Part shown: positions 17,975 to 34,761 of the stretch, in pieces
Numbering within the stretch: position 1 is the stretch's first letter
How the letters are laid out: each line of letters begins with the position of its first letter
Assembly: GCA_027485675.1 (NCBI GenBank)
Contig: JAIXQP010000025.1
Span: 186,001-250,000, forward strand
Reading direction: 5' to 3'
From: Terriglobales bacterium
GTDB lineage: Bacteria; Acidobacteriota; Terriglobia; Bryobacterales; Bryobacteraceae
Length of the DNA stretch: 64,000 nt
Translations under genes and position numbers: made by a program
The notes under the pieces: model-generated
What the model saw: the letters and a program-made list of their open reading frames with translations, nothing else
The model's database searches: none
What the model was told of the DNA's origin: nothing

Positions 17975-18016
17975 GGTACGTTATGGTAGACTTCGCTCAG
18001 TTAGAAGGCAAATGGA

Positions 18017-18973
18017 TTGCGTTACTTAGTCACCGGCGCTGCCGGATTCATTGGTAGCCAGACAGTCGACCGCTTGCTTGCGGATGGACATGAAGTTATC
18101 GGCGTCGATAGCTATATCACGGGGAAGCAGGAGTTTCTCGCTTCGGCCAACGCCTCGCCGCGGTTTACCCTGGTCTTGGGTGATCTCTTTGACTTCACCA
18201 CCGTCTTTGAAGCCTGCGCCGATGTGGATGCCGTCTTTCATCTGGCCGCGAATACCGATGTCCGCCATGGCACCGAATATCCGCGCCGCGATCTCGATCA
18301 GAATGTGATCGTTACTTGGAATATCCTCGAGGCAATTCGCCGGCGCGGCATCAAAACCATTCTGTTTGCCAGCACCGCCTCCGTCTACGGCGACACCGCG
18401 CAGCTTCCCGCTTCCGAAGCCGCCCCACTACCCGGACAGACCTCGCTGCATAACGCTTCGAAGGTGGCCGCCGAAGCCCTCATCACCGCCTACGCCCATG
18501 GTTATGGTCTCCGCGCTATCCTCTTCCGTTTTGCCTCCATTGTGGGGGAACGGTGCTCCCACGGCCATATCTTCAACTTTTGCCGCCAACTCTACCAGCA
18601 TCCGGACCGCCTGACCGTCCTCGGCGATGGCGACGTCCGCCGCACTTACCTCGATGTTGGCGATGCCGTGGACGCCATGCTCCTGGCGCTCGAGAAATCC
18701 ACCACCGCCGCCGAGATCTTCAACGTCGCTTCCCTCACTCCGTGCCGGCTCACCGAGTCCATCGCCTGGATCGCCGATGAAATGAAGCTGCAGCCGGCCA
18801 TTGAATACATGGGCCCCGGGCCCCTATGGCTCGGCAGCTACCCCGCCCTGGTGCTCGATTGCACGAAGTTGCAGCAGTTGGGTTGGCAGCCCCAACTCGG
18901 CCCCGAAGCCGCCGTTCGCCGCTCCGTCCGTTACCTGGCGGCGAACCCTTGGTTGCTCGAAGGCCGCTCCTAG
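18017..18973 (+). CDS. NAD-dependent sugar-nucleotide epimerase/dehydratase family protein
   Basis: Extended short-chain dehydrogenase of 318 residues, related to UDP-glucose 4-epimerase. The cofactor motif TGAAGFIG, the downstream AANTDVRHG and STASVYG segments and the C-terminal sugar-nucleotide domain are clear. The usual catalytic YxxxK reads HNASK (His 145, Lys 149), so the Tyr is missing. The start is a TTG at 18017 with an AAGG at 18005-18008. It lies 42 bases after ybbP and 18 before the ThiF-like gene. It may have altered chemistry or only bind nucleotide sugars. Confidence 0.78.
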   Translation: MRYLVTGAAGFIGSQTVDRLLADGHEVIGVDSYITGKQEFLASANASPRFTLVLGDLFDFTTVFEACADVDAVFHLAANTDVRHGTEYPRRDLDQNVIVTWNILEAIRRRGIKTILFASTASVYGDTAQLPASEAAPLPGQTSLHNASKVAAEALITAYAHGYGLRAILFRFASIVGERCSHGHIFNFCRQLYQHPDRLTVLGDGDVRRTYLDVGDAVDAMLLALEKSTTAAEIFNVASLTPCRLTESIAWIADEMKLQPAIEYMGPGPLWLGSYPALVLDCTKLQQLGWQPQLGPEAAVRRSVRYLAANPWLLEGRS

Positions 18974-18991
18974 CCCCACAATCAAACCAGC

Positions 18992-20008
18992 ATGACTAGT
19001 GAGCAGCGGGAGCGTTACTCCCGCCAAATCCTGTTCGCCCCCATCGGGGAATCCGGCCAGGAGCGCCTCCTCTCCGCGAAGGTCGCCATCGTGGGCTGCG
19101 GCGCCCTCGGCTCGTTTCAGGCCGCCTCTCTCGCCCGCGCCGGAGTCGGCTCGCTCCGCCTCATCGACCGCGACTACGTCGAAGCCTCCAATCTCCAACG
19201 CCAATGGCTCTATGACGAAGCCGACGCCGCCGAAGCGATGCCCAAAGCTGCCGCGGCCGCCCGCGCCATCGCCCGCTTCAACTCCACCGTCGCTGTCGAA
19301 CCCCTCATCGCCGACCTCACCCCCGCCAACGCCGACGACCTCCTCGCCGGCGTCGACCTCATCCTCGACGGCACCGATAACTTCGAAACCCGCTACCTCA
19401 TCAACGATTTCGCCCTCGCCAACCAGGTCCCCTGGATCTACGGCGCCGCCGTCGGCAGCTACGGCCTCACCATGCCGATTCTCCCCGGCCAGACCTCCTG
19501 CCTCCAGTGCGTCTATCCCGCGCCCCCCTCCGGCGCCCAGCCCACCTGCGAGACCGACGGCGTCCTCGGCGCCATCACCTCCGCCATCGCCGCTCTGCAA
19601 TCCGGCATGGCCATCCGCCTGCTCTCGGGCGGCCTTCCGGCCACCAAGCTCACCACGCTCGATGTCTGGTCCGGCGCCATCCGCCAGATCGATCAACCGC
19701 CGCCCGATCCCAACTGCCCCGCCTGCGGCCGCCGCGAATTCGTCTATCTCGACGGTGACCGCCGCGCCCCCATCAGCCTCTGCGGCCGGAACGCCGTGCA
19801 AATTCATGAACGCAACCGGCCCCTGGACCTCGCCGATCTTGCCGCCCGTCTCGAACGCCTCGGCACCGTTCGCCGCAACGACTTCGCCCTCCGCTTCTTC
19901 CTCGACCCCTACGAACTTACCGTCTTCGCCGACGGCCGCGCCATCATCAAGGGTACCCAGGATGTCGGAATTGCCCGCAGCCTCTACTCCCGTTACATCG
20001 GCGCATAG
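18992..20008 (+). CDS. ThiF/MoeB/HesA-type sulphur-carrier adenylyltransferase
   Basis: E1-like enzyme that adenylates the C-terminal Gly of a ThiS- or MoaD-type sulphur carrier for thiamine or molybdopterin synthesis. In its 338 residues I see YSRQI (Arg finger), VGCGALGS (nucleotide loop), DRDYVEASNLQRQ, the paired zinc motifs CLQC and CPAC, and the catalytic Cys in TCETDGVLG. The roughly 90-residue C-terminal extension (LCGRNAVQI onward) is known from Bacillus-type ThiF/MoeB proteins. No carrier gene is adjacent, so thiamine versus molybdenum cofactor cannot be decided. Confidence 0.88.
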   Translation: MTSEQRERYSRQILFAPIGESGQERLLSAKVAIVGCGALGSFQAASLARAGVGSLRLIDRDYVEASNLQRQWLYDEADAAEAMPKAAAAARAIARFNSTVAVEPLIADLTPANADDLLAGVDLILDGTDNFETRYLINDFALANQVPWIYGAAVGSYGLTMPILPGQTSCLQCVYPAPPSGAQPTCETDGVLGAITSAIAALQSGMAIRLLSGGLPATKLTTLDVWSGAIRQIDQPPPDPNCPACGRREFVYLDGDRRAPISLCGRNAVQIHERNRPLDLADLAARLERLGTVRRNDFALRFFLDPYELTVFADGRAIIKGTQDVGIARSLYSRYIGA

Positions 20009-20105
20009 GATACTCCTGATAGGGCCTTGGGTGGCTAATCCCACAAGATTTTGTAGTTTTCCACAATCTCCCCACAGCGGGGCATGTTATCATCAACCCT
20101 GAAAC

Positions 20106-21026
20106 GTGGCTACGCAGCAGTCTTGGACTCGCGATCAAGTACGACGCGTCCTGTCGGTGACGGAGCGCCATCTTCGCTGTTGGGAACAGCAGGGCCTGAT
20201 TCCGCCGCAGGAACGCTATGGGCTCGGAGACCTCCTTGCCTTGCGCGCTCTCAACTCGCTCCGCGAAAAGAAGGTGCCGGTGGCTCGCATCCGCCGCAGC
20301 TTCCAATCCCTCCGCGAACGGCTGCAGCACATCGCCAACCCGTTCACCGAACTCAAGGTCTTTCTCGACGGCAAACGCATTGGCGTGCACCTCGGCGGGC
20401 AGAAGATGGACTCGCTTTCCGGCCAGCTTCTCTTTGATTTCGACGCCGCCGCCCTCGAAAAGCTGCGCCCCTTCCCGCGCCCCGAAGGCCGCGTCCTCGA
20501 AGACCGCCGCAAGCGGGCCGCCGAGGCCGATGAATGGTTCCAGCGCGGCCTCGAACTGGAACAGACCGGCGGACCCGTCGCCGATGCCATCGCGGCCTAC
20601 GAAAGGGCCATCAGCCTCAATCCGCAAGCCGCCGGCGCCCACGTCAATCTGGGCACCATCCGCTTCCACCAGCGCCACTGGGCGCAAGCCGAAGAGCACT
20701 ACCGCAAGGCCGTCGAAGCCGATCCCGAATACGCCCTGGCGCAGTTCAACCTCGGCAATCTCTACGACGAACGCGGCGACCGGCTCCGCGCCCTCTCGCA
20801 TTACCACGCCGCGCTCCGCCTCAACCCCCAATACGCCGACGCCTACTATAACCTGGCGCTCCTCCATCAAGCCTCCGGCGACGTCATGCAAGCCGTCCAA
20901 TACTGGAGCACCTACCTGAAGCTCGATCCCTCCAGCCAGTGGTCCCGCATCGCCCGCCGCGAACTCGCCAAGCTCAAGCAGGCCACCGTCATCCAGGGCT
21001 CCCGCTCCCTCACGCAGCACGCCTAG
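20106..21026 (+). CDS. MerR-type DNA-binding domain fused to TPR repeats
   Basis: Likely transcription factor in which a MerR winged helix (residues 8-75, TERHLRCWEQQGLIPP) is joined to tetratricopeptide repeats (about residues 140-285, with AHVNLGTIRF, ALAQFNLGNLYDERGD and AYYNLALLHQASGD helices) instead of a small-molecule sensor. The TPR part should bind another protein. The start is a GTG at 20106. The 97 bases upstream contain two CCACAA direct repeats 20 bases apart (20041 and 20061) that could be an operator. The stop codon overlaps that of the convergent kinase gene in a CTAG. Confidence 0.82.
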   Translation: MATQQSWTRDQVRRVLSVTERHLRCWEQQGLIPPQERYGLGDLLALRALNSLREKKVPVARIRRSFQSLRERLQHIANPFTELKVFLDGKRIGVHLGGQKMDSLSGQLLFDFDAAALEKLRPFPRPEGRVLEDRRKRAAEADEWFQRGLELEQTGGPVADAIAAYERAISLNPQAAGAHVNLGTIRFHQRHWAQAEEHYRKAVEADPEYALAQFNLGNLYDERGDRLRALSHYHAALRLNPQYADAYYNLALLHQASGDVMQAVQYWSTYLKLDPSSQWSRIARRELAKLKQATVIQGSRSLTQHA

Positions 21027-22333
21027 CCGTGCAGCGGCACCCGAATCGTCACCTCCAGCCCCATGTCCGCATTCCGCGCGCTGATGCGCCCGTGATGCAG
21101 ATGCACCGCCCGCTGCGCGATGGCCAGCCCTAATCCCACGCCGCCGCTCCGCCGCGCCCGATCATCCTCCACCCGGAAGAACGGCCGGAAGATCTTCTCC
21201 CGCATCTCCTCCGGCACGCCCGGCCCGAAATCCCGCACGATCACCAACGCTTCGTCGCCCTCCCGCAGCAGCCGCACCCGCACCTGCTCCTCGGCCGGGG
21301 AGTAGCGAATCGCGTTGCGCAGCACGTTCTCAATCGCCCGCCGCAGCAACTCAGCGTCTGCCTGCATCACAATCGGCCCCTGTAAGTCCCGCTCCAGCTG
21401 GATCCCCTTCTCATCCGCTTCAATCAGGAGGTCGTCCAACAACTCCTCGAGCAGTTCCTTCAAATCCACTGCCGCCGACTTCCTCTCCGCCGGATCTCCC
21501 TCCGCCCGCGTCATCTCGATCAGCTCGCCCACCAGCAGCGAGATCCGCTGCGCCTCTTTCTTGATCCGGTCCAGCGCCGCCCCCCGGTCGGCACTCGTTC
21601 GCGCCAACTCCACCGCGACACTCAGCCGCGCCAATGGCGACCGCAGCTCATGCGAGATGTCCTGCAACAGCTGCCGCTCCGCAGTAAGCAGCGTTTGGAT
21701 CCGTTCGGCCATCTCATCAAACGACCGCGCCACATCGCCGAACTCATCCCGGCGCCGCAACCCGGTTCGCGCTTCGAGATCGCCCGAGCCGAACCGCATC
21801 ACGGTTTCCCGCAACTGCCGCAACGGCCGCCCAATGTAGTGCGCGAGCACGTAAATCCCCAGCACGAAGACGAACACGATCGGCAGATAGTAAGGCAAAT
21901 AGTTCGGTGCGTCGATGCGTGGCTCCGGGCTGACCACCTGCATCCAGTAGCGGCTGTCCGCGCTACGGTGCAGCATGTAGGCTCTGCGCGGCGACCGGCC
22001 GAACGGCCAGCGGAAGGGCGGCAGGCTCGTCTCCAGGCCGGCGATGTCCCGCTTCTCGCCGGTCAACACATCCGTGCCGCTTGCGTCGAGAAGCGAATGC
22101 CGGCCCGGAAACCGGTTGTCCATCCGCGCAATCTGGGGCCGCAAGGCCGCCTCCCCGCCGGTCTCCCAGGCCACCCGCAAGTCGTCCAACTGCGAGTCCA
22201 GCACGCGGCGCATGAAGCTGTTCCCCTGCGAATCCCGCCGGAACAGGTAGTAGGAGGTCGCCACGAACGCAACACTCGAAACGACGAACAGCAGGCTGAT
22301 CCAGAGCAGAATCCGTACGAAGATCGAATTCAT
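21023..22333 (-). CDS. Envelope-stress sensor histidine kinase, CpxA-like
   Basis: Inner-membrane kinase of 436 residues. A transmembrane segment at about residues 8-28, a periplasmic sensor of roughly 110 residues and a second segment near 150-168 precede HAMP (GRPLRQLRETVMRFG onward), the phosphoacceptor box DISHELRSPLARL and the ATP-binding N, G1 and G2 boxes (ENVLRNAIRYS, FGPGVPE, GGVGLGLAI). It begins immediately after the stop of the response-regulator gene. With the CpxP-like gene upstream the unit looks like a Cpx-type envelope stress system, an assignment based on order and domain type. Confidence 0.9.
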   Translation of the reverse strand: MNSIFVRILLWISLLFVVSSVAFVATSYYLFRRDSQGNSFMRRVLDSQLDDLRVAWETGGEAALRPQIARMDNRFPGRHSLLDASGTDVLTGEKRDIAGLETSLPPFRWPFGRSPRRAYMLHRSADSRYWMQVVSPEPRIDAPNYLPYYLPIVFVFVLGIYVLAHYIGRPLRQLRETVMRFGSGDLEARTGLRRRDEFGDVARSFDEMAERIQTLLTAERQLLQDISHELRSPLARLSVAVELARTSADRGAALDRIKKEAQRISLLVGELIEMTRAEGDPAERKSAAVDLKELLEELLDDLLIEADEKGIQLERDLQGPIVMQADAELLRRAIENVLRNAIRYSPAEEQVRVRLLREGDEALVIVRDFGPGVPEEMREKIFRPFFRVEDDRARRSGGVGLGLAIAQRAVHLHHGRISARNADMGLEVTIRVPLHG

Positions 22334-23011
22334 CTAGACCTCGGTGGCCGGCAGGCTGAGCTGATAACCCACGCCGCGGACGGTCAGAATCTTGGCGCTC
22401 GAGCCTTCCAGTTTCTTGCGAATATGGCTGACGTGCACGTCAATCGCCCGGTCGAACGCGGTGGCGTCGCGCTGATAGAGCCGTTGCGCGAGCTCGTCCC
22501 GGGAGACCACCCTTCCCGCGCCCCGGTGGAGCACCTCCAGGATGTCGAACTCCACGGACGTTACCTCCAGCCGCCGCCCGTCCACGCTGGCCGACCGTCC
22601 GCCCGGATCCATCCGCAGCCCGTAGGGCTCCGCCGCTCCGGCCTTGCCCCCGCTGCGCCGCAGGATCGCCCGCACCCGCGCCAGCAACTCCATCGGCTCA
22701 AACGGCTTGGGCAGATAATCGTCCGCCCCGCCTTCGAGTCCCCGGATCCGGCTCGCCGATTCGAGGCGCGCCGTCAGCATCAGCACCGGCACATCGCTCG
22801 TCTTGCGCAGACGCTCCAACACCGCGAAGCCGTCCAGGCGCGGCATCATGACGTCCAGCAGCACCAGATCATAGGGCCGCTCCGCCAGCTTCGCCAAGCC
22901 GCTTTCGCCGTCATGGGAGAGCTCCAGCCCCACGCCCTGGCTGGCGAAAAACTCCTGCAGCAACATCCCGAGTTCGACGTCGTCGTCCACCATCAGGAGC
23001 GTCGGGTTCAT
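22334..23011 (-). CDS. OmpR/PhoB-family response regulator, CpxR-like
   Basis: DNA-binding regulator of 225 residues. The receiver has the acidic pair DDD near residue 9, the phosphoacceptor Asp in LVLLDVMMPR (about residue 53), Thr and Lys in LMLTAR and YLPKPFE. The C-terminal winged helix carries the RAIDVHVSHIRKKL recognition region and GVGYQL at the end. It is encoded between the CpxP-like gene (9 bases upstream) and the cognate kinase (no gap), so all three are probably one transcript. Confidence 0.93.
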   Translation of the reverse strand: MNPTLLMVDDDVELGMLLQEFFASQGVGLELSHDGESGLAKLAERPYDLVLLDVMMPRLDGFAVLERLRKTSDVPVLMLTARLESASRIRGLEGGADDYLPKPFEPMELLARVRAILRRSGGKAGAAEPYGLRMDPGGRSASVDGRRLEVTSVEFDILEVLHRGAGRVVSRDELAQRLYQRDATAFDRAIDVHVSHIRKKLEGSSAKILTVRGVGYQLSLPATEV

Positions 23012-23020
23012 GCGTCGTTT

Positions 23021-23533
23021 CTACCGGCCCCGCCTTGGCTGTACCGGCGCCATCAGCATCGGAATCATGTTGTAAACGCCATCGGCCTTCTGCTTCTGCT
23101 TGTCATCCAGCATCGCCAGGACATCGGCGAATACCTTCGCCTCGGCCGCCGCCAACTGGGCCTGCACGGCGCCGTATTTCTCATAGAGGGGCGCTGCATC
23201 CGCCCCGCTCTTCACCGCGGCACGAATCTGTCCCTTCACCTGCATCGAATCCAGTTGCAACGGCTGCACATTCTCTTTGCCGCGGTCCATTACCGTCTTC
23301 AACTGCTTCTTCTGTTCCTTCTTCAATCCGAGCTGGTCGCTCAGCGAATCGAGCATCATGCGTTCCCGTTCGGCGGGATCCATCGGACCGCGGCCCATGC
23401 CACCGCCCATTCCGCCGCCCATGCCGCCTCGCCCACCACCCATACCGCCCATGCCGCCGCCCATGCCAGGGCCCTGCGCCATGGCCACTCCACAGATCAA
23501 CACGATCGCTGCCACAATCCGCATACCCTTCAC
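23021..23533 (-). CDS. Periplasmic Spy/CpxP-like protein with Gly-Met-rich repeat
   Basis: Predicted periplasmic helper or inhibitor for the kinase encoded downstream, 170 residues. After a signal peptide (VLICGVAMA, cleavage near residue 20) comes a Gly/Met-rich tract of GMGGG repeats (about 22-50), then an alpha-helical domain with SDQLGLKKEQKKQLKTVMD and a second heptad-like helix, typical of Spy/CpxP (LTxxQ-type) proteins. The Met-rich repeat could bind copper or simply be a flexible linker. Start is GTG 23533 or ATG 23524. In E. coli cpxP is divergent from cpxRA; here it leads the operon. Confidence 0.78.
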   Translation of the reverse strand: MKGMRIVAAIVLICGVAMAQGPGMGGGMGGMGGGRGGMGGGMGGGMGRGPMDPAERERMMLDSLSDQLGLKKEQKKQLKTVMDRGKENVQPLQLDSMQVKGQIRAAVKSGADAAPLYEKYGAVQAQLAAAEAKVFADVLAMLDDKQKQKADGVYNMIPMLMAPVQPRRGR

Positions 23534-23589
23534 CCTACTGCCTCTCCCGGGCCCGGAAAAGCCCCCCTTTGCAAAGAATTGTCAATCCA

Positions 23590-23615
23590 GGGGGATTTCG
23601 CCTCCTCCTCCGACT
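23590..23615 (+). promoter_or_regulatory. Candidate ECF-type promoter before the sigma gene
   Basis: GGGGG at 23590-23594 and CGACT at 23611-23615 are separated by 16 bases, with ATTTC after the first box. The same two boxes with the same spacing occur at 25207-25232 before the beta-helix gene. The spacing fits an ECF -35/-10 pair, and the sigma gene begins 21 bases downstream, which would be autoregulation. This is a match between only two sites. Confidence 0.45.
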
Positions 23616-23635
23616 CGTAAGATGAGAGAAGCTGC

Positions 23636-24214
23636 TTGCCGTCACCCGCCACCACACAGGATACAGATTGGGCCCTGGCCCAAGCTGTACTCGCCCGCGA
23701 CCGCAAGGCCATCGCCGAGTTCGTTATGCTCTGCTCTGACCCCCTCTATCGGTACATCCGCTCCCGCCTCCAACCCCGCCTCGAATTCGTCGACGATCTC
23801 GTCCAGGACGTCTTCCTCACCGCTTGGCGCAGCCTGCCCCAGTATCGCGGCCAATCGCCGCTCAAGTCCTGGCTCCTCGGCATCGCCCGCCACAAAGTGG
23901 AAGATCACTACCGCGACCGCCTCCGCGATCTCGCTGTTCCCGACGACGCCACCGAAACCATCCCCGAACCCGCGCCCGGCGCCGACTTCGCCCTCGACCA
24001 GGCCCGCTCCGCCGCCGCCACCGCCGCCATTCTCGCCGCCCTTCCCGAGCCCTACCGCGTCGTCCTTCTCTGGCGCTATTGGGAGCAGCGGTCCGCCGAA
24101 GAGATGGCGACCCTCACTGGCAAAACGCCTAAAGCCATCGAACGGCTCCTCTCCCGGGCGCGCCAGGAATTTCGCCAGCAATGGCTCACCAAACCGCAGG
24201 AGGCCACCCGATGA
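23636..24214 (+). CDS. ECF-family RNA polymerase sigma factor
   Basis: Alternative sigma factor of 192 residues. Region 2 is seen in DDLVQDVFLTAWRSLPQYRG and SWLLGIARHKVEDHYR (about residues 48-105), and region 4 in LPEPYRVVLLWRYWEQRSAEEMATLTGKTPKAIERLLSRAR (helix-turn-helix, about 128-178). Start is a TTG at 23636 with a purine-rich GAGAGAAG before it. The next gene starts inside its stop codon, the usual place for an anti-sigma factor. It is divergent from the CpxP-like operon and preceded by a motif that recurs before the beta-helix gene. Confidence 0.92.
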   Translation: MPSPATTQDTDWALAQAVLARDRKAIAEFVMLCSDPLYRYIRSRLQPRLEFVDDLVQDVFLTAWRSLPQYRGQSPLKSWLLGIARHKVEDHYRDRLRDLAVPDDATETIPEPAPGADFALDQARSAAATAAILAALPEPYRVVLLWRYWEQRSAEEMATLTGKTPKAIERLLSRARQEFRQQWLTKPQEATR

Positions 24215-24540
24215 ACGAGGAACTCTGGTTCGCCCAACTCGCCGACGAGACGCCGCTTGAAACGGCCATCCCCGCCCCGTCCTGCCTCAAGTCGCTCGTC
24301 TACTCGCACCTCATCAGCGAAGCCGAAACCGAAGGCCCCCTGCTGCCCCTGCCGGAAACCAAAGCTGCCGGCCGCGGCCTCTGTGTCTTCGAACACCTCA
24401 TCGAAATTCTCCCCGTCGGCGCTCCCCTGCAGAACTTCCAGTACTGCAAGATCTGCCACGCCCGCGTTCTCGGCGAACGCGTCGAGCAAGCCCCCATCTT
24501 CTGGCCCTGCTGCCCCTACAGCGAGTTCCAGAATCGCTAG
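24211..24540 (+). CDS. Small Cys-rich protein coupled to the ECF sigma gene, candidate anti-sigma factor
   Basis: Unrecognised 109-residue protein. The ATG at 24211 overlaps the sigma stop as ATGA, so translation is probably coupled. It has no membrane segment. The C-terminal third holds CKICHAR followed after 18 residues by a CC pair, which could form a zinc site; other cysteines lie near residues 29 and 57. It lacks the HxxxCxxC motif of ordinary zinc anti-sigma factors. Position makes a soluble regulator of the sigma factor the first guess. Its TAG stop shares a CTAG with the convergent barrel gene. Confidence 0.65.
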   Translation: MNEELWFAQLADETPLETAIPAPSCLKSLVYSHLISEAETEGPLLPLPETKAAGRGLCVFEHLIEILPVGAPLQNFQYCKICHARVLGERVEQAPIFWPCCPYSEFQNR

Positions 24541-25193
24541 AACTCGCGTAGGAAGCCGAACATATTCTGAAAGTGCAGCAGATTGCGCTGTCCCCGCGGC
24601 CGCAGCTCCCGGCTGAACGGATTCGCCGAAAACGTCTCCCAGAAGCTATAGCGGAAACGCCAGCCCTTCGCCACCCGTAGGTCGATCCCCACCGCCGTCC
24701 GCCAGAAGACGCGCGTCGCCGCGAACTGCTCCGGCGGCAGCACCACCGCGCCCTTCGCCACCACCACGGCCCCCGCCTTGGAATTCACCCGCACCATGCC
24801 CAACCCCCCGGACACATAGGGCCGAAACCGGCTCGCCCGCGGCCGGAAGTAGAGCAAGCCATCCACGCTCCCCGCGTTCTGCGTGCTCGTCCGCTTCTGC
24901 TCAAACGTCGTCTCCTGTCCGCCTTCCACCAGCGTCTCGGTGAACTGCAGCGCGTTCCGGTTCCACACATACATGCCCTGCACACTCAGGTACTCCCGCC
25001 AGTGCTTCCCTGCAAACAGAGATAAGGCGGCCCCGTTCTCCGGCTTATAGAGCGAGATCGCCGTCGAATCCCGCGTGATCACTGTCCGCCCATCCGCCGA
25101 CAACGTCGACAATCCCCCCGTCCCCCCCGCATACCACTGCCCCTGGCTCGCGCACACCATCCCCATCCCAATCACAATCCCCCGCAAATTCAT
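24537..25193 (-). CDS. Predicted outer-membrane beta-barrel protein
   Basis: Protein of 218 residues that I do not recognise by family. It has a signal peptide (VIGMGMVCASQGQ, cleavage near residue 19) and alternating hydrophobic strands with aromatic ends throughout (for example SLFAGKHWREYLSVQGMYVW and RFRPYVSGGLGMVRV), finishing with LREF, so the last residue is the Phe expected of an outer-membrane barrel. The size fits an eight-stranded barrel. It starts 14 bases from the ECF-like motif on the opposite strand and ends overlapping the sigma-linked gene. Confidence 0.6.
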   Translation of the reverse strand: MNLRGIVIGMGMVCASQGQWYAGGTGGLSTLSADGRTVITRDSTAISLYKPENGAALSLFAGKHWREYLSVQGMYVWNRNALQFTETLVEGGQETTFEQKRTSTQNAGSVDGLLYFRPRASRFRPYVSGGLGMVRVNSKAGAVVVAKGAVVLPPEQFAATRVFWRTAVGIDLRVAKGWRFRYSFWETFSANPFSRELRPRGQRNLLHFQNMFGFLREF

Positions 25194-25206
25194 TGTTCTA
25201 TTTTGA

Positions 25207-25232
25207 GGGGGATTTCCGCCTAAGTCACGACT
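25207..25232 (+). promoter_or_regulatory. Candidate ECF-type promoter before the beta-helix gene
   Basis: GGGGG at 25207-25211, then ATTTC, and CGACT at 25228-25232, with exactly the same 16-base spacing as the site at 23590-23615. Transcription would start near 25239, about 40 bases before the ATG at 25280. This would make the beta-helix gene a target of the nearby sigma factor. Confidence 0.45.
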
Positions 25233-25279
25233 ACACCACCGAAGCGCTTCACAATTTTACTCACTACCAGGACATCGAC

Positions 25280-26038
25280 ATGACAAGAACTCTGTTCGCG
25301 CTTCCCCTCTTCGCCCTCGCCCTCTGCGCTCAACCTCCAGGACAACGCACCATCGGCTCGCCCACCACCATCGATCAGCCCGGCACCTACATGCTCACCA
25401 ACAGCATCTTCACCAATTCCAGCACCGGCGCCGGCATTACCATTACCGCCAGCGATGTAACCCTCGACCTCAACGGCCAAACCATCACCGGCCCCGGTAA
25501 CGGCTCCCACGCTGGTCTCCGCATCCTCAACGCTCAGAACGTCTCGGTCAAAAACGGCAACATCACCGGCACCCTCATGGGCGTCATGGTGAACAACTCC
25601 GCCAACGTTCGCATCGAAGGCCTCAATATCCGTGGCTTCGGCCTGGCGGTCGCCGCGCCGCCGCCTGAAATCGGTATTCTCCTCAATCAGTCCCGCAACG
25701 TGGTCGTCCTGAACAACTCCATCTTCAACGTCGGCCTCGGCCTCTTCGTCCGCGGCAGCCGGAGCTTCGGCAACCGACTGCAGAACAACACTCTTACGGC
25801 CATGGCCAACGGTGTCTTCGGCATCTGCTACAACCCTGCCGATGGCGACCCCCAAGGTCCCAAAGGAGACCTGATTACCGGTAATCTCATCCGTGGATTC
25901 CCCACCTCCATCCAGATCAACGGCCGGTCCGACTACAACGTCATCGACGCCAATACCTTGATCTTCACGGTAGCCGGCCTCGAGAACCCGAACCCCACAA
26001 ACATCGCCCAAGGCAACCGTACCGCCCAGATCCAGTAA
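25280..26038 (+). CDS. Secreted right-handed parallel beta-helix protein (NosD-like repeats)
   Basis: Exported protein of 252 residues. The ATG at 25280 is chosen because a signal peptide follows at once (MTRTLFALPLFALALCAQ) and AGGA lies 8 bases upstream; the longer in-frame reading from 25193 would cross the promoter-like motif. From residue 40 on, short repeats of the form VTLDLNGQTITG, LRILNAQNVSVKNGNITG, VMVNNSANVRIEGLNIRG and NVVVLNNSIFNVGLG form a parallel beta-helix of the NosD/carbohydrate-binding type. No catalytic residues are obvious. It may bind or cleave polysaccharide outside the cell. Confidence 0.78.
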   Translation: MTRTLFALPLFALALCAQPPGQRTIGSPTTIDQPGTYMLTNSIFTNSSTGAGITITASDVTLDLNGQTITGPGNGSHAGLRILNAQNVSVKNGNITGTLMGVMVNNSANVRIEGLNIRGFGLAVAAPPPEIGILLNQSRNVVVLNNSIFNVGLGLFVRGSRSFGNRLQNNTLTAMANGVFGICYNPADGDPQGPKGDLITGNLIRGFPTSIQINGRSDYNVIDANTLIFTVAGLENPNPTNIAQGNRTAQIQ

Positions 26039-26087
26039 TCTCCGCAAGCCGGCGGCGGAGTTGTTATAAAGGTGGGTGCCCTTCCCG

Positions 26088-26486
26088 ATGCCCCCCGACA
26101 AAAAGGCCACCCGCCGCCGCTTGCCGACCATCCGCATCGGCCATCTCTCCATCACTTTGCTGCCGGGCGAATCCGTGGACCGCGTGCAACAGTTGACCGA
26201 CCAGGTCTGGGAACGCTGGCAGCCGCAGAACATCGTCGAACAGTTCGACTGCGACATGATCATCCACGCCCTCTTCAAGATCGAACGCTACGAACGGTTC
26301 CGCGATCAGTTCGTCGCCAGTGGAATTCAGGCCGAAGACCTGGACCGGGCCCAAAAATCCTACCAGTCCACCATCGTCACCGCCGAACGCAGCCTGCTCA
26401 TCGCCCGCGAAGCGCAACCCCGCGCCAACTCCAAGGTGACCCCCGATATGCTGGCCGATTGGCCTGTCGATGGGCCCGTTCAGTAG
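26088..26486 (+). CDS. Small hypothetical protein upstream of the DUF2760/Hsp70 operon
   Basis: Unrecognised soluble protein of about 132 residues from the ATG at 26088; a GTG at 26076 would add four. It starts with a basic segment (KKATRRR), followed by a short beta-rich part and amphipathic helices (VDRVQQLTDQVWERWQ, LFKIERYERFRDQFVASG, LDRAQKSYQSTIVTAERSLLIA) that may form a helical bundle. It lies 36 bases before the DUF2760 gene on the same strand and could be part of that operon. No function is proposed. Confidence 0.55.
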   Translation: MPPDKKATRRRLPTIRIGHLSITLLPGESVDRVQQLTDQVWERWQPQNIVEQFDCDMIIHALFKIERYERFRDQFVASGIQAEDLDRAQKSYQSTIVTAERSLLIAREAQPRANSKVTPDMLADWPVDGPVQ

Positions 26487-26510
26487 TGCACGGTGTATCC
26501 TGAAGGATTC

Positions 26511-26515
26511 AGGAG
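26511..26515 (+). promoter_or_regulatory. Ribosome-binding site that decides the DUF2760 start
   Basis: AGGAG at 26511-26515 lies 7 bases before a TTG at 26523. This favours that start over the upstream in-frame GTG at 26493, which lacks a comparable site. Confidence 0.6.
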
Positions 26516-26522
26516 CTTTTCG

Positions 26523-27065
26523 TTGTCTCGCATTGCTGACGCCTTCTCATCTTTCTTCGGAATCCTTTTCTCCGGAACCCTTTCCCCCGAAATTGCCAAG
26601 AATTACGGCTACACCAAAATCGTAGAAAAGAAGCCGGAGCCGAAACCCGCCCCCGTGCCCGTCGCCAAGACCAGCGACGGCGCGCTGCAGATGCTCGGCA
26701 TCCTGCAGCGCGAAGCCCGCCTCGTCGACTTCCTCATGGAAGACATCTCCGCCTATCAGGACGACCAGGTCGGCGCCGCCGTCCGCACCCTCCATGAACA
26801 GGCCGGCAAAGCCATCGGCCGTTATCTCACCCTCTCGCCCATCATCGATGGCGTCGAAGGCACCTATACCGAAACCCGCGCCGCCGGTCCCCTCGCCAAA
26901 GACAACGCTGCCCTCAAGTTCCTCGGCAACGTCCCCGCCCAAGGCAAGCCGCAGGGCGGCACCCTCCGCCACAAAGGCTGGCACGCCTCGAAAGTCGACC
27001 TCCCCGAAGTGAAGCCGGCCATGTCCGTCCACATTCTCGCCCCCGCCGAAATCGAAATCGAATAG
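26523..27065 (+). CDS. DUF2760 domain protein of an Hsp70 operon
   Basis: Protein of unknown role, about 180 residues from the TTG at 26523. Residues 1-20 are hydrophobic (SRIADAFSSFFGILFSG), then a Pro/Lys-rich linker (KKPEPKPAPVPV), then the DUF2760 domain (GILQREARLVDFLMEDISAYQDDQVG, GKAIGRYL, GTLRHKGWHASKVDLPE). DUF2760 genes are typically found directly before unusual Hsp70 genes, as here: the next gene starts one base after the stop. It may be a cofactor, client adaptor or nucleotide exchange partner of those Hsp70s; this is inference from context. Confidence 0.82.
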   Translation: MSRIADAFSSFFGILFSGTLSPEIAKNYGYTKIVEKKPEPKPAPVPVAKTSDGALQMLGILQREARLVDFLMEDISAYQDDQVGAAVRTLHEQAGKAIGRYLTLSPIIDGVEGTYTETRAAGPLAKDNAALKFLGNVPAQGKPQGGTLRHKGWHASKVDLPEVKPAMSVHILAPAEIEIE

Positions 27066-27066
27066 C

Positions 27067-28704
27067 ATGCAGCCTACCCTTGGCATCGACCTCGGCACCA
27101 CCAACTGTGCCGTCGCGCGCGCCGAAGAGGAAGCCGGCGTCGAGGTTCTCGGTATCCCCCAACTCGTCAACCCCGGCGAAGTCCGCGCCGAACCGCTCTT
27201 CCCCTCGAGCCTCTATCTCCCCGGCCCCTCCGAGTTCGCCCCCGGCGCGCTCGCCCTCCCCTGGGACGAGAGCCCGCCCTACCTCACCGGCGAACTCGCC
27301 AAAAAACGCGGCGCCGAAAACCCCTCCCGCCTCGTCCACTCCGCCAAGTCCTGGCTCGCCGTCGCCGGCGACATGCCCCACCTCTCCGCCGTCGAAGCCA
27401 CCCGCGCCTACCTCGCCCACCTGCGCGCCGCCACCCCGAACTTCGACGCCCACAACGTCCTCATCACCGTCCCGGCCTCCTTCGACGCTGCCGCCCGCGA
27501 CCTCACCCTCCAAGCCGCTCAACAAGCCGGCTACCCCACCCCCGTTCTGCTCGAAGAGCCGCAGGCCGCCTTCTACGCCTGGCTCGAACGCCACCCCGAC
27601 TGGCGCGAACGCATCCATCCCGGCGCTCTCATCCTCGTCATTGACATCGGCGGAGGCACCACCGACTTCACCCTCATCCGCGTCACCGACCACTCCGGCG
27701 ACCTCGCCCTCGAACGCATCGCCGTCGGCGAACACATCCTCCTCGGCGGCGACAACATGGACCTCGCCCTCGCCCGCGCCGTCGAAGCGGAAATGCCCAA
27801 GCTCGACGCCGCCCAGCTCCATGCCCTCTGGCAGCGCTGCCGCGTCGCCAAAGAAAAGCTCCTTGCCCCCGGCGCCACGCAAACGGAAGAGCCGGTCACC
27901 ATCCTCGGCCGCGGCACCGGCCTCATCGGCGGCACACTCAAGGGCGTTCTCCGCCGCTCCACGCTCGAACAGGTGCTCCTCGATGGCTTCCTGCCCCCCG
28001 CCGAAGCCACCGACACGCCCGCCCGTCCCCGCCGCGCGGCTCTGCAAGAGGTCGGCCTCCCCTACGCCTCTGACCCCGCCATCACGCGCCACCTCGCCGC
28101 GTTCCTCCGCGGCCAGCAGCCCACCCACGTACTCTTCAACGGCGGCGTCCTCAACGCCCCACTCGTCCGTGAACGCCTGCTCTCGGTTCTGAACTCCTGG
28201 CTCCCGGCCCCCGTCGAAGTGCTCAGCGGCGAAGACCTCATGCACGCCGTCGCCCGCGGCGCGGCCTACTACGGCCTCGCCCGCCAAGGCCGCGGCCTCC
28301 GCATCCGCGGCGGCGTCCCCCGGACGTACTACCTTGGCATCGAATCCGCCATGCCCGCCGTCCCCGGCTTCCCGCCGCCCATGAAGGCGCTCACCGTCGT
28401 CCCCTTCGGCCTCGAAGAAGGCTCCGCCGTCGCCCTGCCGAAGTACGAATTTTCCCTCCGCACCGGCGAACCCGCCGAGTTCCGCTTCTTCTCCTCCACC
28501 ACCCGAAAAGAGGATCAGCCCGGCGACCTGCTCGACCCCATTCCCCCCGGCGTCGAAGAACTCGCCCCCATGGAAGTCACCCTCTCCGGCGCTCCCGCCC
28601 GCGTCTCGCTCGAAGCGCAGGTCACGGAAACCGGCATGCTCGAAATCTATTGCGTCGCCCCCAGCGGAGAACGCTGGAAACTCGAATTCAACCTACGCTC
28701 ATGA
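27067..28704 (+). CDS. Hsp70-family protein, short form
   Basis: DnaK-like ATPase of 545 residues, distinct from the housekeeping DnaK. The nucleotide-binding signatures are intact: GIDLGTTNCAVA (residues 6-17), VIDIGGGTTDFTLI (about 192-205) and an adenosine-type VLFNGGVLNAPLVRE (about 356). The linker and C-terminal part are short (about 120 residues, beta-rich), without the helical lid of DnaK. It sits between DUF2760 (1-base gap) and a longer Hsp70 (4-base ATGA overlap), implying stoichiometric production of all three. Client and co-chaperones are unknown; no DnaJ or GrpE gene is adjacent. Confidence 0.9.
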   Translation: MQPTLGIDLGTTNCAVARAEEEAGVEVLGIPQLVNPGEVRAEPLFPSSLYLPGPSEFAPGALALPWDESPPYLTGELAKKRGAENPSRLVHSAKSWLAVAGDMPHLSAVEATRAYLAHLRAATPNFDAHNVLITVPASFDAAARDLTLQAAQQAGYPTPVLLEEPQAAFYAWLERHPDWRERIHPGALILVIDIGGGTTDFTLIRVTDHSGDLALERIAVGEHILLGGDNMDLALARAVEAEMPKLDAAQLHALWQRCRVAKEKLLAPGATQTEEPVTILGRGTGLIGGTLKGVLRRSTLEQVLLDGFLPPAEATDTPARPRRAALQEVGLPYASDPAITRHLAAFLRGQQPTHVLFNGGVLNAPLVRERLLSVLNSWLPAPVEVLSGEDLMHAVARGAAYYGLARQGRGLRIRGGVPRTYYLGIESAMPAVPGFPPPMKALTVVPFGLEEGSAVALPKYEFSLRTGEPAEFRFFSSTTRKEDQPGDLLDPIPPGVEELAPMEVTLSGAPARVSLEAQVTETGMLEIYCVAPSGERWKLEFNLRS

Positions 28705-31334
28705 AGATCGGCATCGACCTCGGCACCACCAACTCCGCCCTCGCCTACTGGGACCCCTCCGACGACGACGCGGCCATCAGTGTCTTCGAAATCCCCCAGT
28801 TCACGGCCCCCGGACGCATCGAAAAGCTCCGCACCCTCCCCAGCTTCCTCTACCTCGCCGACCAGACCTACGTCGGCGCCTACGCCCGCGAACAAGGCGC
28901 CCTCACCCCCACCCGCTCCGTCCACTCCGCCAAAAGCTGGCTCTCCAATCCCGACGTCGACCGCACCGCCAAGATCCTCCCCTGGGAAGCCCAGCCCGAA
29001 TCCCGCGAACTCTCCCCCGTCGAAGTCTCCGCCGCGTTTCTCAAACACATCCGCGATGCCTGGGACGCCGCGCACCCGGAAACACCCCTCGCCGCCCAGG
29101 ACATCGTCCTCACCGTCCCGGCGTCGTTCGACGAAGAGGCTCGCGAGCTCACCGTCATGGCCGCCACCCAGGCCGGCCTCGACAACGTCACTCTCATTGA
29201 AGAACCCGCCGCGGCCTTCTACTCCTGGATCGCCAACCACCTCACGGCCTCGCAAAAGCAGCTCTTCGACGGCCAGACCGTCCTCGTCTGCGACGTCGGC
29301 GGCGGCACCAGCGACTTTACCCTCATCAAGGTCTCCCGTACCGGCGACATGGTGGAGTTCACCCGCACCGCCGTCGGCAAGCATCTCCTCCTCGGCGGCG
29401 ACAACCTCGACCTCACCCTCGCCTGGCTCGTCGAAGCCAAGCTCGGCCAGCAGCTCTCGCTCCGCCAGCGCTCCGCCCTCCGCCGCCAATGCGCCGCCGC
29501 GAAAGAGAGATTACTGAACGAACCCAATCTCGAAAAGGTGGAGATCACCGTCCTCGGCGCCGGCAGCTCCCTGATCGGCGGCACCCTGCGTTCGGAAATC
29601 CTCCGCTCGGAAGCGCTCGAACTCGCTCTTGAAGGCTTCCTCCCCGCTGCGCCGCTCGCCGACCGGCCCAAAGACGACAAGCGCAGCCTCTTCCGCGAAC
29701 TCGGCCTCCCTTACGTTTCGGACCCCGCCGTCACCAAGCACCTCGCGGCGTTCCTCACCGATAACGGCGTCACCGAAGGTCCCGACGCTATTCTCTTCAA
29801 CGGCGGCTTCTTCATCCCGGAACTCCTCCGCCAGCGCGTCGCTGACGTCCTCGAACACTGGTTTGCCAAGCGCCCGGCGATCTTCGAGAATCGCGACCTC
29901 GATCTCGCCGTCGCCGTCGGCGCGGCCTATTACGCCAACGTCCGCACCGGCGGCAAGGGCGTCCTTGTCCGCGGCGGCCTCCCGCGCGCTTACTTCGTCG
30001 GCCTGTCGAACGACCGCAAGCAGTCCATCTGCCTAGCCCCGCGCGGCAGCGAGGAAGGCACCGAGATCACCCTCGACCACGAAGGCCTCCAGCTCGTCGC
30101 CAACCGCCCCGTCAGCTTCCGCCTCTACAGCTCGCTCCACCGCACGGAAGATCAGATCGGCGACCTCGTCGACCTCTCCGCCGAACCCGAGATCCACGCC
30201 CACGCCCCGCTCCAGGCCTTGATCCGCTTCGGCAAGCCCACCGGCGAACGCCTGGTCCCCGTCAAGCTCGGGGCCAAGCTCACCGCCGTCGGAACGCTCG
30301 AGATCTGGTGCGATTCGAAGGTCAGCGACAACCGTTGGCGTCTCCAGTTCGAGCTGCGCAAGTCCGCCGCTCCCACGGCTCAACGCGCCGCCACGGTCAT
30401 TGCCGACGAAGCCGTGGCCGCCGGCGAAGCCCTCATCCGCCAGACCTTTGAGGCCGGCACCCTGCCGCCCGAAGAGCTCCCCGCCAAGCTCGAACAGTTG
30501 CTCGGCCTCGGCCGCGCCAGTTGGCCCTTGAGCGTCATCCGCCGCTACGCCGATCTCTTCCTCCAACTCGCCGACTCCCGGAAGCGTTCGGCGGCCCATG
30601 AGGCGCGTTGGTTGAACCTCGGCGGCCTTTGCCTCCGCCCCGGCTTCGGCTTTCCGGGCGACGAGCTCCGCATTGAACAGGCGCGCCGCGTCTTTGCCGG
30701 CGGCCTGACCTTCAGCAATCAGGTCCAACCCGAAATCGAGTGGTGGATCTTCTGGGGCCGCGTCGCCGGCGGCCTGAATCGCAACCAGCAAACGGACATC
30801 TATCAGCGCATCGCCAACCAGATCCTGCCGAAGGGCAACAAGAAGGCGCCCCGAATTAATCCCAGCCTCGTGCGCGAACTCTGGCGCACCGCCGCCAGCC
30901 TCGAACATCTTCCCGCTGGCACCCGCACCGAACTGGGCGAGTCCTGCCTGAAGCGTCTCCGCAACAACCAATCGACGCATCCAGAGACGGATCTCTGGTG
31001 CCTGAGCCGCCTCGGCGCCCGCAAGCTTTTCTACGGGCCGATGAATCTGGTGCTCCCCGCCGCGACGGCGGTCCGTTGGGCCGAGCAGTTGTTGAAGCAT
31101 CCGCACGCCCACGTGCCGGAGACGCTCGTGGCCCTCTGCCAGAAGACCGGCAACGCCACGCTCGACGTCCCGGTCACCACCCTGAACCTCGCCGCCGCTC
31201 GCATCCAGCAGCATAAGGATTCCGAAGCCCTGCTCGCCCGTTTGGAGGGCAAGGCCGCCGACTCCGCCGAGTCGCTCGCCCGCCTGTTCGGCGAGGAGCT
31301 CCCCAGCGGCCTCGTGTTCACCAGCTCTTACTGA
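28701..31334 (+). CDS. Hsp70-family protein, long form with extra C-terminal domain
   Basis: Second Hsp70 homologue, 877 residues from the ATG at 28701. It has GIDLGTTNSALA (residues 4-15), VCDVGGGTSDFTLI (about 200) and ILFNGGFFIPELLRQ (about 368). After the beta-type substrate domain ends near residue 555 there is a helical extension of about 320 residues (AAPTAQRAATVI to the end) that, by position, fits DUF3731, a domain known beside such Hsp70 ATPases. The overlap with the shorter Hsp70 suggests that the two act as a pair. An upstream in-frame start at 28650 lies within the preceding gene and is rejected. Confidence 0.88.
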   Translation: MKIGIDLGTTNSALAYWDPSDDDAAISVFEIPQFTAPGRIEKLRTLPSFLYLADQTYVGAYAREQGALTPTRSVHSAKSWLSNPDVDRTAKILPWEAQPESRELSPVEVSAAFLKHIRDAWDAAHPETPLAAQDIVLTVPASFDEEARELTVMAATQAGLDNVTLIEEPAAAFYSWIANHLTASQKQLFDGQTVLVCDVGGGTSDFTLIKVSRTGDMVEFTRTAVGKHLLLGGDNLDLTLAWLVEAKLGQQLSLRQRSALRRQCAAAKERLLNEPNLEKVEITVLGAGSSLIGGTLRSEILRSEALELALEGFLPAAPLADRPKDDKRSLFRELGLPYVSDPAVTKHLAAFLTDNGVTEGPDAILFNGGFFIPELLRQRVADVLEHWFAKRPAIFENRDLDLAVAVGAAYYANVRTGGKGVLVRGGLPRAYFVGLSNDRKQSICLAPRGSEEGTEITLDHEGLQLVANRPVSFRLYSSLHRTEDQIGDLVDLSAEPEIHAHAPLQALIRFGKPTGERLVPVKLGAKLTAVGTLEIWCDSKVSDNRWRLQFELRKSAAPTAQRAATVIADEAVAAGEALIRQTFEAGTLPPEELPAKLEQLLGLGRASWPLSVIRRYADLFLQLADSRKRSAAHEARWLNLGGLCLRPGFGFPGDELRIEQARRVFAGGLTFSNQVQPEIEWWIFWGRVAGGLNRNQQTDIYQRIANQILPKGNKKAPRINPSLVRELWRTAASLEHLPAGTRTELGESCLKRLRNNQSTHPETDLWCLSRLGARKLFYGPMNLVLPAATAVRWAEQLLKHPHAHVPETLVALCQKTGNATLDVPVTTLNLAAARIQQHKDSEALLARLEGKAADSAESLARLFGEELPSGLVFTSSY

Positions 31335-34300
31335 GTCAGGTTCAGGTAGCGCAGGTACCGCCATCCGCTGTTGGGCAACCCTGCTGACCGGCTCTGCACC
31401 CCACCGAAGTAGAGCAAGTGTCCCCGGAAGCCTGTCTTGAAGGTCAAGCCAAAATTGAGGGTCAGGTCGCGCCCACTGAGCGTGCGGGAACTCGTTGCGC
31501 CATCGAGGGTACATTGCGTGTTCGACACCGTCCCCGGCTGACCCGGTGTAATCCCGGGCAGCAGCAGGTTCGTGCCGGAGTCGCTCAGCAGATACATGAC
31601 GTTGGCCACGCCGTCGTAGCCGACATAGCAGGCATTGGCCCCGTTCAGTTCTCCGTTGATCAAGAACTGCGCTGCCGTAATGTTGCTCGCCGCCACCGCG
31701 TCCCGGTACTGCACCCGGATCCGTCCCGCTTCGTTCTGGGTGTATTCGATGACCTGCGGCCGCGTATTCTCGGGCGCCGTTTCTGGAAGGCGGAAGATTC
31801 CTCGCGGAGACCACCCGGAGTTGGCCCCGCCCCGGTCCCGCGCGGCCAAAAAGGCGATCTTGTCGCCCTGGAACGTCTCCCTAAACCGAATCACCATCGA
31901 AAGGGTCAGAAAATTCCCAAATCGCTCCACCCAAACATTCCGAATGCTGCACTGGCTGTTCTGAATCGGGGTGGAGGACCCGAGCCCCGTCGCGATCAGA
32001 TTGGTGTTGTTGTCGTTCACCAAAAACATCGTATTGCTCACCGAATCAAACGCCAGGTAACAGGCATTACCAGCGTCTAGCGCGTGATTGACCAGAATAT
32101 TGAGAACACCCAGATCTTCATTCCCGTCGCCATCAAAATAGGTGGCCGTCAACTGAGTATCGCGGGGGTCTTCACCGGCCAGCTGCGTCGAAATCGATTC
32201 CGGCCTGGGCACGGCGCCGCCCTGCTCCACCAATACGGAAACGCCTGCCACGCTGAATGTACCGCTTCGCGCGGCACGGTTTGGGGAAGCGTCCACCCCC
32301 ATGACGAGCGGGCCGGATCCGCTGTTGCGATAACTTTGGTAACGAATCCAGGGAACCTGGGAATCTGGGTCCCACATGCACTGGTCCTGTGTCGTCACAT
32401 TGACAATCACCGCGTCGCCTGCCGTCCCTACCCGGAAGCTGCGCGGGTTCACTGCGAACGTACACTCGTACCGGGTATACGAAAAGCTGTAGGCTTTGGG
32501 AGCCGCCGAAGCTTGTATTGTCTGCGAAAGCGGTCCCCCATGGTCCCATCGCCCATCATCGAAATAGTGGGCGTTTGGATACCGAGCACCCGCCCCTCCA
32601 TTCCGGGAAATCGTAATCGTGTGTGTCGTCCCGGGCTGCCAAGCGAACCTCGCCGGCGTGGTGTAGCCAGTTCCGTCCACCGAGAGACTCATCCCGCTCG
32701 GCTGCGAAGTAAACGTGTGCTCAATACTGCCTGTCGTATCGCGGAAACGTGAGAGGAACGCGTATGTCTCGCCGCTCTCCGCCATTGGACTCCTGGTACG
32801 GCTATTGATCGTCGGAAAGTCTGCGGACCGGGTCGTGCCTGCCAACCAGACCCTACCCTGCGGATCAATGGTCATTCCTCGCAGCCGCTCTTCTCGGGAG
32901 CCTCCCAAATAGGTGCCGTAGATGACGTCCTGCCAGTTCCGGGAAAACTTCCTCACGAAGACGCCCGAACCACCAGCGTCGTTCGGTTGGTAGGCGTCAT
33001 AAATCGCGGCTTCACTGCCGCCTCCGCCTAGGATCAGATTGCCACTGCCATCCACTGCCACCTCCGCCGCAAAGAAGTCGAGGCTATTCCGCAGCAAAAT
33101 CCGGTTCGTATCGGCCGAAAGGTTGGCGAAGAACGCTCCCGGACGAGTACCGTCTCCGACGTTCCTTTCTCCCGGTGGCAGCGTAAAGTTCCCTAACGTG
33201 CTCCCCAGCACGAGCAGCGATTGGTCGGGAGCGAATCGAAGCCGTTGCGGCAGCCAGTCGCCTCCCGGGAAAAGCGTAGTGAGCAGCACCGGCGCAGAAC
33301 CGTCCGGGTTCCACTCGACCACCATTCCTTGCCGCCCGCTCGATGTCTTCGCCGCTCCCCCTCCAACCGGAGTAATCGCGGGAGAGTTTGTCTCGACCAG
33401 CCAAAGCGCCCGGCCGGCCGAACTCACCGCCACGCCCTTCACCACCGTGGTGGATCGATCATTGCCAGAAATTGCCGAGGCGTGCAGATACCGGCCCCCA
33501 CTCGGCCCGATCTTCAGGCACAGTCCCATCTCGCTCGCCCGTCCACCCGGAGCGTAGATCGTCGTCGTCGGAAACGATAGCCCCGCCGACGTCGCGGCCG
33601 CCACCAACAGATTCCCCTCGGCATCCACCGCAGCATCATAGGTCGTCGTATTGCCAATTCCCCCCAAAATCGTGGAGTACAACACACTCTGCCCATCCGC
33701 CGACAACCGGAACGCAAACCCCTCCTGGCTCACACTCGCCCGATTCACCGCCACCGGGTTCACCTGCGGAAAGTCGATCGACGTCGTGTGCCCCACCACA
33801 TAAGCCTCCCCCGCCGCATTCACCGCCATCCGCGTCACCTCCTCCTCCCGCGCTCCGCCCACCAACGTCGCGTAAACCAAGTTCGCCCCCGTCGGGTCAA
33901 ACTTCGCCACCAACACATCAAATGACCGCTGCCCCGCGGGGCCAATCGACCTACTACCCGTGAGCGGACCATCCGTCCCCATCGCAACGTATATGTTCCC
34001 TGCCGGATCCGACGCCATCGACAAGCCATAGACGTTGCCTAGATACGTCGAATAGTCCAGCGCCGGGTCAATCAACAGCGGCAAGTTCCGATCATAGGCC
34101 CCTATGCGAAACCGCACGACATTCTTCTCAATGGCAAATCGCACCGCCACCGGCACTCGCCCTTGCGCGCCCTCCTGCCAAGCCACTGGCGCCAACTGCC
34201 GGTAGACTTCTCCCCGCAGGCGCACCGCCAGCGACCCGTCTCCCTCCACCGCGGCCGCCGCGTTTGCTCCCAACTCTAAAGCAATCTGAGCAGGATCGGC

Positions 34301-34693: not shown

Positions 34694-34761
34694 GACTGAC
34701 AGGCTAGCGCATGTTGGCGGCCGGTGAATCGATCCGGTGTGCTACCCCGGAAGAGTTTCCG

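Follow-up and report, generated by a model that had tools for sequence, protein, structure and literature searches.

A two-box, promoter-like motif accompanies an ECF sigma factor and its adjoining exported genes in a conserved bacterial cassette

Comparison of 44 cassettes shows that a fixed motif, GGGGG and CGAC with 16 bases between them, goes with one family of ECF sigma factors and with the exported genes that adjoin it. Two copies lie in the 64,000-nucleotide stretch of Terriglobales DNA that we analyzed (the window; Table 1), and very probably both are −35/−10 promoters for the ECF sigma factor whose gene spans 23636-24214. The cassette consists, in order, of the sigma gene, a gene for a 109-aa Cys/His protein, an outer-membrane barrel gene on the opposite strand, and an exported cargo gene. 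An earlier reading of the sequence alone (the sequence-only reading) had proposed that the ECF sigma factor regulates both itself and a local regulon that includes a secreted beta-helix protein, a proposal that gains support from conservation of the motif (38/44 upstream of sigma genes and 17/17 upstream of unbroken beta-helix genes). Beyond that proposal, from comparison of the cassettes we infer an exchange of cargo, a new family of Cys/His regulators and an antiparallel overlap of promoters. In related bacteria of soil and water, the motif persists while the exported protein appears often to have been replaced.

Table 1. Features of the sigma factor cassette in the window
Feature	Position	Strand	Basis or detail
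ECF promoter of sigma operon (predicted)	23590..23615	+	−35 GGGGGATTT 23590-23598, −10 CGACT 23611-23615
ECF sigma factor, 192 aa, TTG start	23636..24214	+	Pfam Sigma70_r2 and Sigma70_r4_2 above cut-off; orthologues
Small Cys/His protein, 109 aa, candidate anti-sigma factor	24211..24540	+	ATGA overlap with sigma gene
Outer-membrane beta-barrel protein, 218 aa	24537..25193	−	Pfam OMP_b-brl
Sigma70-like barrel promoter (proposed)	25200..25228	−	−35 GTGACT (25228-25223), N17, −10 CAAAAT (25205-25200)
ECF promoter of beta-helix gene (predicted)	25207..25232	+	−35 GGGGGATTT 25207-25215, −10 CGACT 25228-25232
Palindrome GAAGCGCTTC, possible operator	25241..25250	.	Just past expected beta-helix start; AAGCGCTT in 8 loci
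Exported beta-helix protein, 252 aa (cargo)	25280..26038	+	Pfam Beta_helix and NosD; signal peptide by eye

In the window, GGGGG occurs at 23590-23594 and 25207-25211, ATTTC follows immediately 3′ of each, and CGACT lies at 23611-23615 and 25228-25232, 16 bases from GGGGG in either copy. Both copies are on the forward strand, with 20 and 47 bases separating the boxes from the TTG at 23636 and the ATG at 25280, respectively, where the two reading frames begin. The pair at 23590-23615 and 25207-25232 thus has the coordinates, strand and gap that the sequence-only reading gave it, and each copy is, as described there, upstream and on the strand of the gene that it precedes. The same reading was also correct that neither box is a GGAAC/CGTC element, as the boxes are GGGGGATTT and CGACT. 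However, 23636 and 25280, which it gave for mapping of 5′ ends, are the start codons. Since transcription is expected to start 6-9 nt past a −10 box, the 5′ ends should lie at about 23621-23624 and 25238-25241.

The motif is rare in the host genome. Across its 6,591,471 bases (6.59 Mb), exact GGGGGATTT-N12-14-CGACT matched twice on the forward strand, at 23590 and 25207 of the window, and never on the reverse strand, while the pattern read backwards as a control matched on neither (0 forward, 0 reverse). Allowing up to two mismatches gave 58 sites (25 + 33) compared to 20 (7 + 13) for the backwards control; thus, composition does yield loose matches. All four sites with one mismatch fell within open frames of 330-544 codons. 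The concern that the motif might be common inside genes is answered by the two exact sites, both of which are intergenic. In a survey of 61 genomes, we found 14 exact matches, compared to one for the backwards control. Seven were in the 12 sigma-bearing genomes, every one inside the cassette; the other seven were spread across the 49 genomes that lack the sigma gene, and open frames of 172 codons or more cover all seven, which is a weak criterion at this G+C. The paired motif in the window is not due to chance.

The sigma protein matched Pfam Sigma70_r2 (50.3 bits; cut-off 24) and Sigma70_r4_2 (43.9; cut-off 25.7) and the NCBIfam superfamily model TIGR02937 (89.8; cut-off 42.9). Among the best 25 of 77 matched NCBIfam models, no named subfamily scored above its cut-off, the best subfamily among the matches listed being TIGR02989 (91.4 compared to a cut-off of 124.55). 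Like ECF (group IV) factors of about 190 aa, the protein has sigma regions 2 and 4 only, and an autoregulated two-box promoter is indicated by conservation. The canonical AAC of the −35 box and CGT of the −10 box are absent from the motif, which has GGGGGA and CGAC instead. Literature searches found nothing that links Bryobacteraceae with ECF sigma factors or Sulfopaludibacter with sigma factors. Papers retrieved for GGGGGATTT and sigma factor concern Clostridium, Bacillus and cyanobacteria, as judged by their titles.

We determined how the cassette is distributed. Matches to the sigma protein at E 1e-20 or better were present in 12 of 61 genomes, the host's own included. These 12 genomes carry the sigma gene, the small-protein gene, the barrel gene on the opposite strand and, mostly, the beta-helix gene next; the exceptions are G003 and G021, which have no beta-helix gene, G001, which stops at the barrel gene, and G011, in which just a fragment is left. 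Searching with a small-protein profile gave matches in 35 of the order's 257 genomes, spread over 18 of its 84 genera, while among 396 genomes drawn from the phylum the host genome was the sole match. Scanning 84,980 species, one genome each, revealed 33 cassette loci in records titled Acidobacteria, Acidobacteriaceae, Terriglobia, Bryobacterales, Bryobacter and Candidatus Sulfopaludibacter, with one of the 33 titled Acidimicrobiia (L130), which is possibly a binning error. Twenty-four of the 33 came from genomes already in our set and nine were new, giving 44 cassettes altogether; since they come from related orthologues, counts over them are not counts of independent events. In two loci, extra DNA separates the small-protein and barrel genes (4.4 kb in L029, 9517-13893; 1.3 kb in L100, 4447-5744).

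The motif is conserved before the sigma orthologues, a check that the sequence-only reading had suggested. In 38 of 44 cassettes, GGGG[GA]-N16-CGAC lay no more than 260 bp 5′ of the sigma match, compared to an average rate over the same loci of about 0.02 per region, in which the true sites are counted. Among the nine cassettes kept out of the motif definition, eight had the strict motif. When the gap between GGGGG and CGAC was relaxed to 15-17 bases, 40 of 44 cassettes matched. Gaps from 8 to 26 bases after GGGGG upstream of sigma were tested, and only 16 (34/44), 15 (4) and 17 (7) were found, with longer G runs counted more than once. The six cassettes without the strict motif are L037, L103, L105, L104, L138 and L117. 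L104 has a gap of 15 and L138 a gap of 17. In L103 and L105, the motif fronts a lactonase-type propeller gene that lies directly 5′ of the sigma gene and heads the sigma operon (assigned by family scan in L103 and by resemblance in L105). In L037, where the sigma, small-protein and barrel genes are broken, the −35 box is degraded, with GGGGG and ATTT gone; in L117 the motif was not found in the 186 nt upstream of the sigma match. The reverse strand of the sigma-upstream regions carries the motif with a gap of 16 in L034, L097, L098 and L114, and in three of these it heads a divergent exported protein. The rows of the gap and box tabulation, the barrel-promoter comparison and the eight-locus column comparison were chosen with the strict motif as the criterion, which by construction makes GGGG and CGAC fully conserved in them.

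The motif is likewise found before the cargo. A beta-helix gene is present in 18 cassettes, although the copy in L037 is a fragment and that in L030 ends at the contig edge, and GGGGG-N16-C(G/T)AC lies 5′ of all 17 unbroken copies (all except L037), with CGAC in 14 and CTAC in L032, L106 and L112. Two beta-helix homologues with 51-52% identity come from G013 and G018, genomes that yielded no sigma factor and no small protein; in the loci examined, these homologues had neither a motif with a gap of 16-18 after GGGG nor AAGCGCTT. In other genera, motif copies away from the sigma gene precede different proteins whose N-termini resemble signal peptides by eye. A family scan of ten of these non-beta-helix cargo proteins gave matches above cut-off to Spond_N (L035, L136), Lactonase (L103, L147), NHL (L114) and DUF7482 (L034, L116), while the L098 barrel fell below its cut-off and L107 and L132 had no family. 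The cargo behind the motif thus appears to have been swapped among beta-helix, spondin-type, lactonase- and NHL-type propeller and DUF7482 proteins. We found no literature joining Spondin_N with ECF sigma factors.

In all, we counted 35 cargo sites in 34 of 44 loci. They derive from 48 strict matches not 5′ of sigma in the 44 loci (the window was covered from 15000 to 35000 only), of which 13 were dropped, eight with no frame downstream and five inside genes by eye. The 35 cargo sites of the gap and box tabulation form a different set, having been picked under a separate rule. The ten loci without a strict cargo site are L028, L032, L037, L099, L102, L104, L106, L112, L130 and L149, some of which run out at a contig edge. 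Several cargo mRNAs looked hairpin-like by eye at their 5′ ends, and we rejected an RNA hairpin as a general feature by folding: the 35 cargo leaders had a mean z of −0.10 (two with p < 0.05), compared to +0.29 for 38 sigma leaders (two) and −0.15 for 40 barrel-upstream stretches (five). Rfam gave no match over 20000-29000.

In some genomes, the cassette is absent together with its neighbors. The block at 21023-26038 comprises the sigma cassette and genes for a kinase, a response regulator and an LTXXQ protein. Three relatives (G016, G009 and G015) lack the entire block, and the genes that flank it in the window are about 50 bp apart in them; no convincing junction repeats of a mobile element were found. 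In L037 (8621-10736; relative G011), the sigma, small-protein, barrel and beta-helix genes are broken or reduced, while their neighbors are intact. A stretch at 23574-23587, AAGAATTGTCAATC, lies 5′ of the divergent LTXXQ gene and is nearly identical in L027, L028, L029 and L037; it is possibly the promoter of the LTXXQ gene or a regulator site. On the other side, 26493-31334 encodes a DUF2760 protein and, after it, two frames that by eye resemble Hsp70-type ATPases and are 38% alike in L027.

This neighborhood bears on whether the boxes could be the site of another regulator, such as the OmpR-type response regulator encoded at 22334-23011, rather than sigma promoter elements. In favor of such a site, L027, L028, L029 and L037 have the kinase, regulator and LTXXQ genes beside the cassette, and in G016, G009 and G015 these genes are absent together with it. 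However, the motif persists at the sigma gene in loci with no kinase, regulator or LTXXQ matches at that level (for example, L032 and L035), and the spacing, order, strand and distance to start codons of the boxes fit a −35/−10 pair, making this explanation very unlikely. The reading of both copies as promoters of the adjoining sigma factor also has to be weighed against one in which the factor is autoregulated through the motif but a different ECF factor of similar specificity reads the cargo copy. Other ECF factors do exist in the host genome, which has 44 candidates for ECF-type matches at first look. Yet the motif accompanies this sigma family, and the two cargo homologues in sigma-less genomes lack it; we give a second factor little credence.

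The two copies in the window are only 1.6 kb apart and alike over the boxes, as recent local duplication or chance would have it. However, the copies have different bases between their boxes, the spacers of eight beta-helix promoters have a mean pairwise identity of 0.33, and the box pair is present in cassettes of 18 genera. Together, the 38/44 conservation and the restricted gap values practically refute duplication or chance, and recognition of both copies by the adjoining sigma factor is the reading that we carry forward.

We characterized the small protein encoded beside the sigma factor. In all 44 cassettes, its gene lies directly 3′ of the sigma match, with gaps from −15 to 178 (co-direction with sigma was required when the pair was chosen). 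C58, C79, H83 and C101 are conserved in 43 of 43 small proteins and C82 in 42 of 43 (L037 left out), a set of residues that would suit one metal site. No signal peptide was seen in the 109-aa protein. Pfam and NCBIfam placed it in no family (best stray match, E 0.044), and the PDB gave no sequence match at E 5 and no Foldseek match to its fold at E 10. A structure model had a mean pLDDT of 87.3, compared to 52 for an earlier model from 11 sequences; failure of Foldseek to match the PDB does not exclude a class I anti-sigma fold. The ZAS signature Hx3Cx2C was present in none of 34 small proteins, while CxxCH was present in 33. The mirror-tree correlation between the sigma factor and the small protein was 0.69 (L037 left out), which adds no evidence because linkage alone would give this value. 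On gene position and the Cys/His residues, the protein is a candidate anti-sigma factor. Whether it silences the sigma factor in the cytosol until a metal or redox signal frees it we regard as an even bet.

The barrel gene was found in 41 of 44 cassettes and is opposite in strand to sigma in all 41. Within the genus, barrel and sigma genes occur in the same 8 of 19 genomes (Fisher p 1.3e-5, uncorrected for kinship). Lying between the two promoters, the barrel gene is probably part of the circuit. Its proposed sigma70-like promoter in the window matches the sigma70 consensus at 8 of 12 positions, with the −10 box ending six bases from the barrel ATG, so that the barrel mRNA is perhaps leaderless. 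We compared eight beta-helix loci selected by a shared palindrome (the window, L027, L029, L030, L031, L096, L100 and L109), in all of which AAGCGCTT lies 10-11 nt 3′ of CGAC. These loci keep the columns ATTNTG (5/6 invariant) and GTCA (4/4), which are dispensable to the ECF motif elsewhere, while 0/8 of the spacer columns are invariant. Read on the opposite strand, these loci have GTGAC[AT]-N17-CA[AG]AAT, with 8 or 9 of 12 sigma70 consensus matches, six bases from the barrel start codon in 8 of 8 (GTG in L100 and ATG in the others). At the other 27 cargo sites, sigma70-like boxes were absent from that place and occurred in other registers or not at all. Scanning 23400-26200 for sigma70 promoters at a cut-off of 9/12, which the window's barrel promoter falls under, gave no match (shuffles, 0.5), and scanning L031 gave one (shuffles, 0.0). 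The palindrome GAAGCGCTTC, which we take to resemble LacI-family operators, is a possible operator in the beta-helix subgroup.

From these columns we infer, for the beta-helix subgroup, that the barrel promoter lies under the ECF promoter. Such an overlap would mean that the two promoters cannot both be occupied at once, and the antiparallel arrangement predicts a reciprocal switch in which active sigma turns the cargo gene on and the barrel gene off. This remains tentative, and we lean somewhat against it.

There may be a third target outside the cassette. On contig C24 (L119, about 8304), an intergenic site with two mismatches, G7/CGACT, lies 5′ of a PhoB-type winged-helix gene, and orthologues of this gene in G006 and G011 have an upstream G5-6/CGAC pair with a gap of 15-16. 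The pair is absent before 13 other orthologues, among them those of the sigma-bearing genomes G017, G001, G014, G003 and G010. In G012, the G run is kept and CAAC replaces CGAC. Excluding the unreadable G002 orthologue, the site is present in three of eight sigma-bearing genomes and in none of eight others, yet the two nearest relatives bear the sigma gene and lack the site. The winged-helix gene is thus a possible target.

A model that would accommodate these data is that the sigma factor transcribes its own operon, composed of the sigma gene and the 109-aa Cys/His gene, in a positive feedback loop, and also transcribes the exported cargo gene. The Cys/His protein would hold sigma inactive in the cytosol until a metal or redox signal releases it, and in the beta-helix subgroup active sigma would turn on the cargo gene and turn off the barrel gene through the overlapping promoters. 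In its entirety, as a self-contained sigma cassette with a private promoter code, a new Cys/His regulator family, swapped exported cargo and a barrel/cargo switch in the beta-helix subgroup, this model is possible but, on balance, doubtful. The interest of the cassette is threefold: the promoter code of its ECF sigma factor is non-canonical and apparently private, its small protein is a candidate for an anti-sigma family that has no known relatives, and the cargo exchanged behind a single promoter forms a natural series, all of this in a phylum whose members are hard to grow. The sigma-promoter pair could serve as an orthogonal switch. If the overlap is as predicted, with cargo on and barrel off, an outer-membrane protein would be exchanged for an exported one.

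Autoregulation is the usual case for ECF sigma factors (PMC3817407, PMC8103513). The systems described there likewise have a sigma factor with its own promoter, a regulator directly 3′ and few adjoining targets, but their −35 and −10 boxes are of the AAC and CGT types, in contrast to GGGGGATTT and CGACT here. The 109-aa protein matched none of the known anti-sigma families. According to PMC8999054, the ZAS systems ChrR and RshA also have a soluble, small Cys/His protein encoded beside an ECF sigma gene; they carry the Hx3Cx2C signature, which the small proteins here lack, as they lack any PDB match by sequence or Foldseek. ECF270, a ZAS-regulated group with one listed model from an Acidobacteria bacterium, similarly pairs an acidobacterial ECF sigma factor with a soluble regulator in that source, and when the two are compared by description, the cassette differs in missing the ZAS signature. 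SigX-CfrX-OprF of Pseudomonas, as that source presents it, also unites in one circuit an ECF sigma factor, a putative anti-sigma factor that is small and soluble, and an outer-membrane protein. Likened to it by gene set, the cassette differs in having its barrel gene on the strand opposite to sigma, a proposed barrel promoter beneath the ECF promoter and an additional exported cargo.
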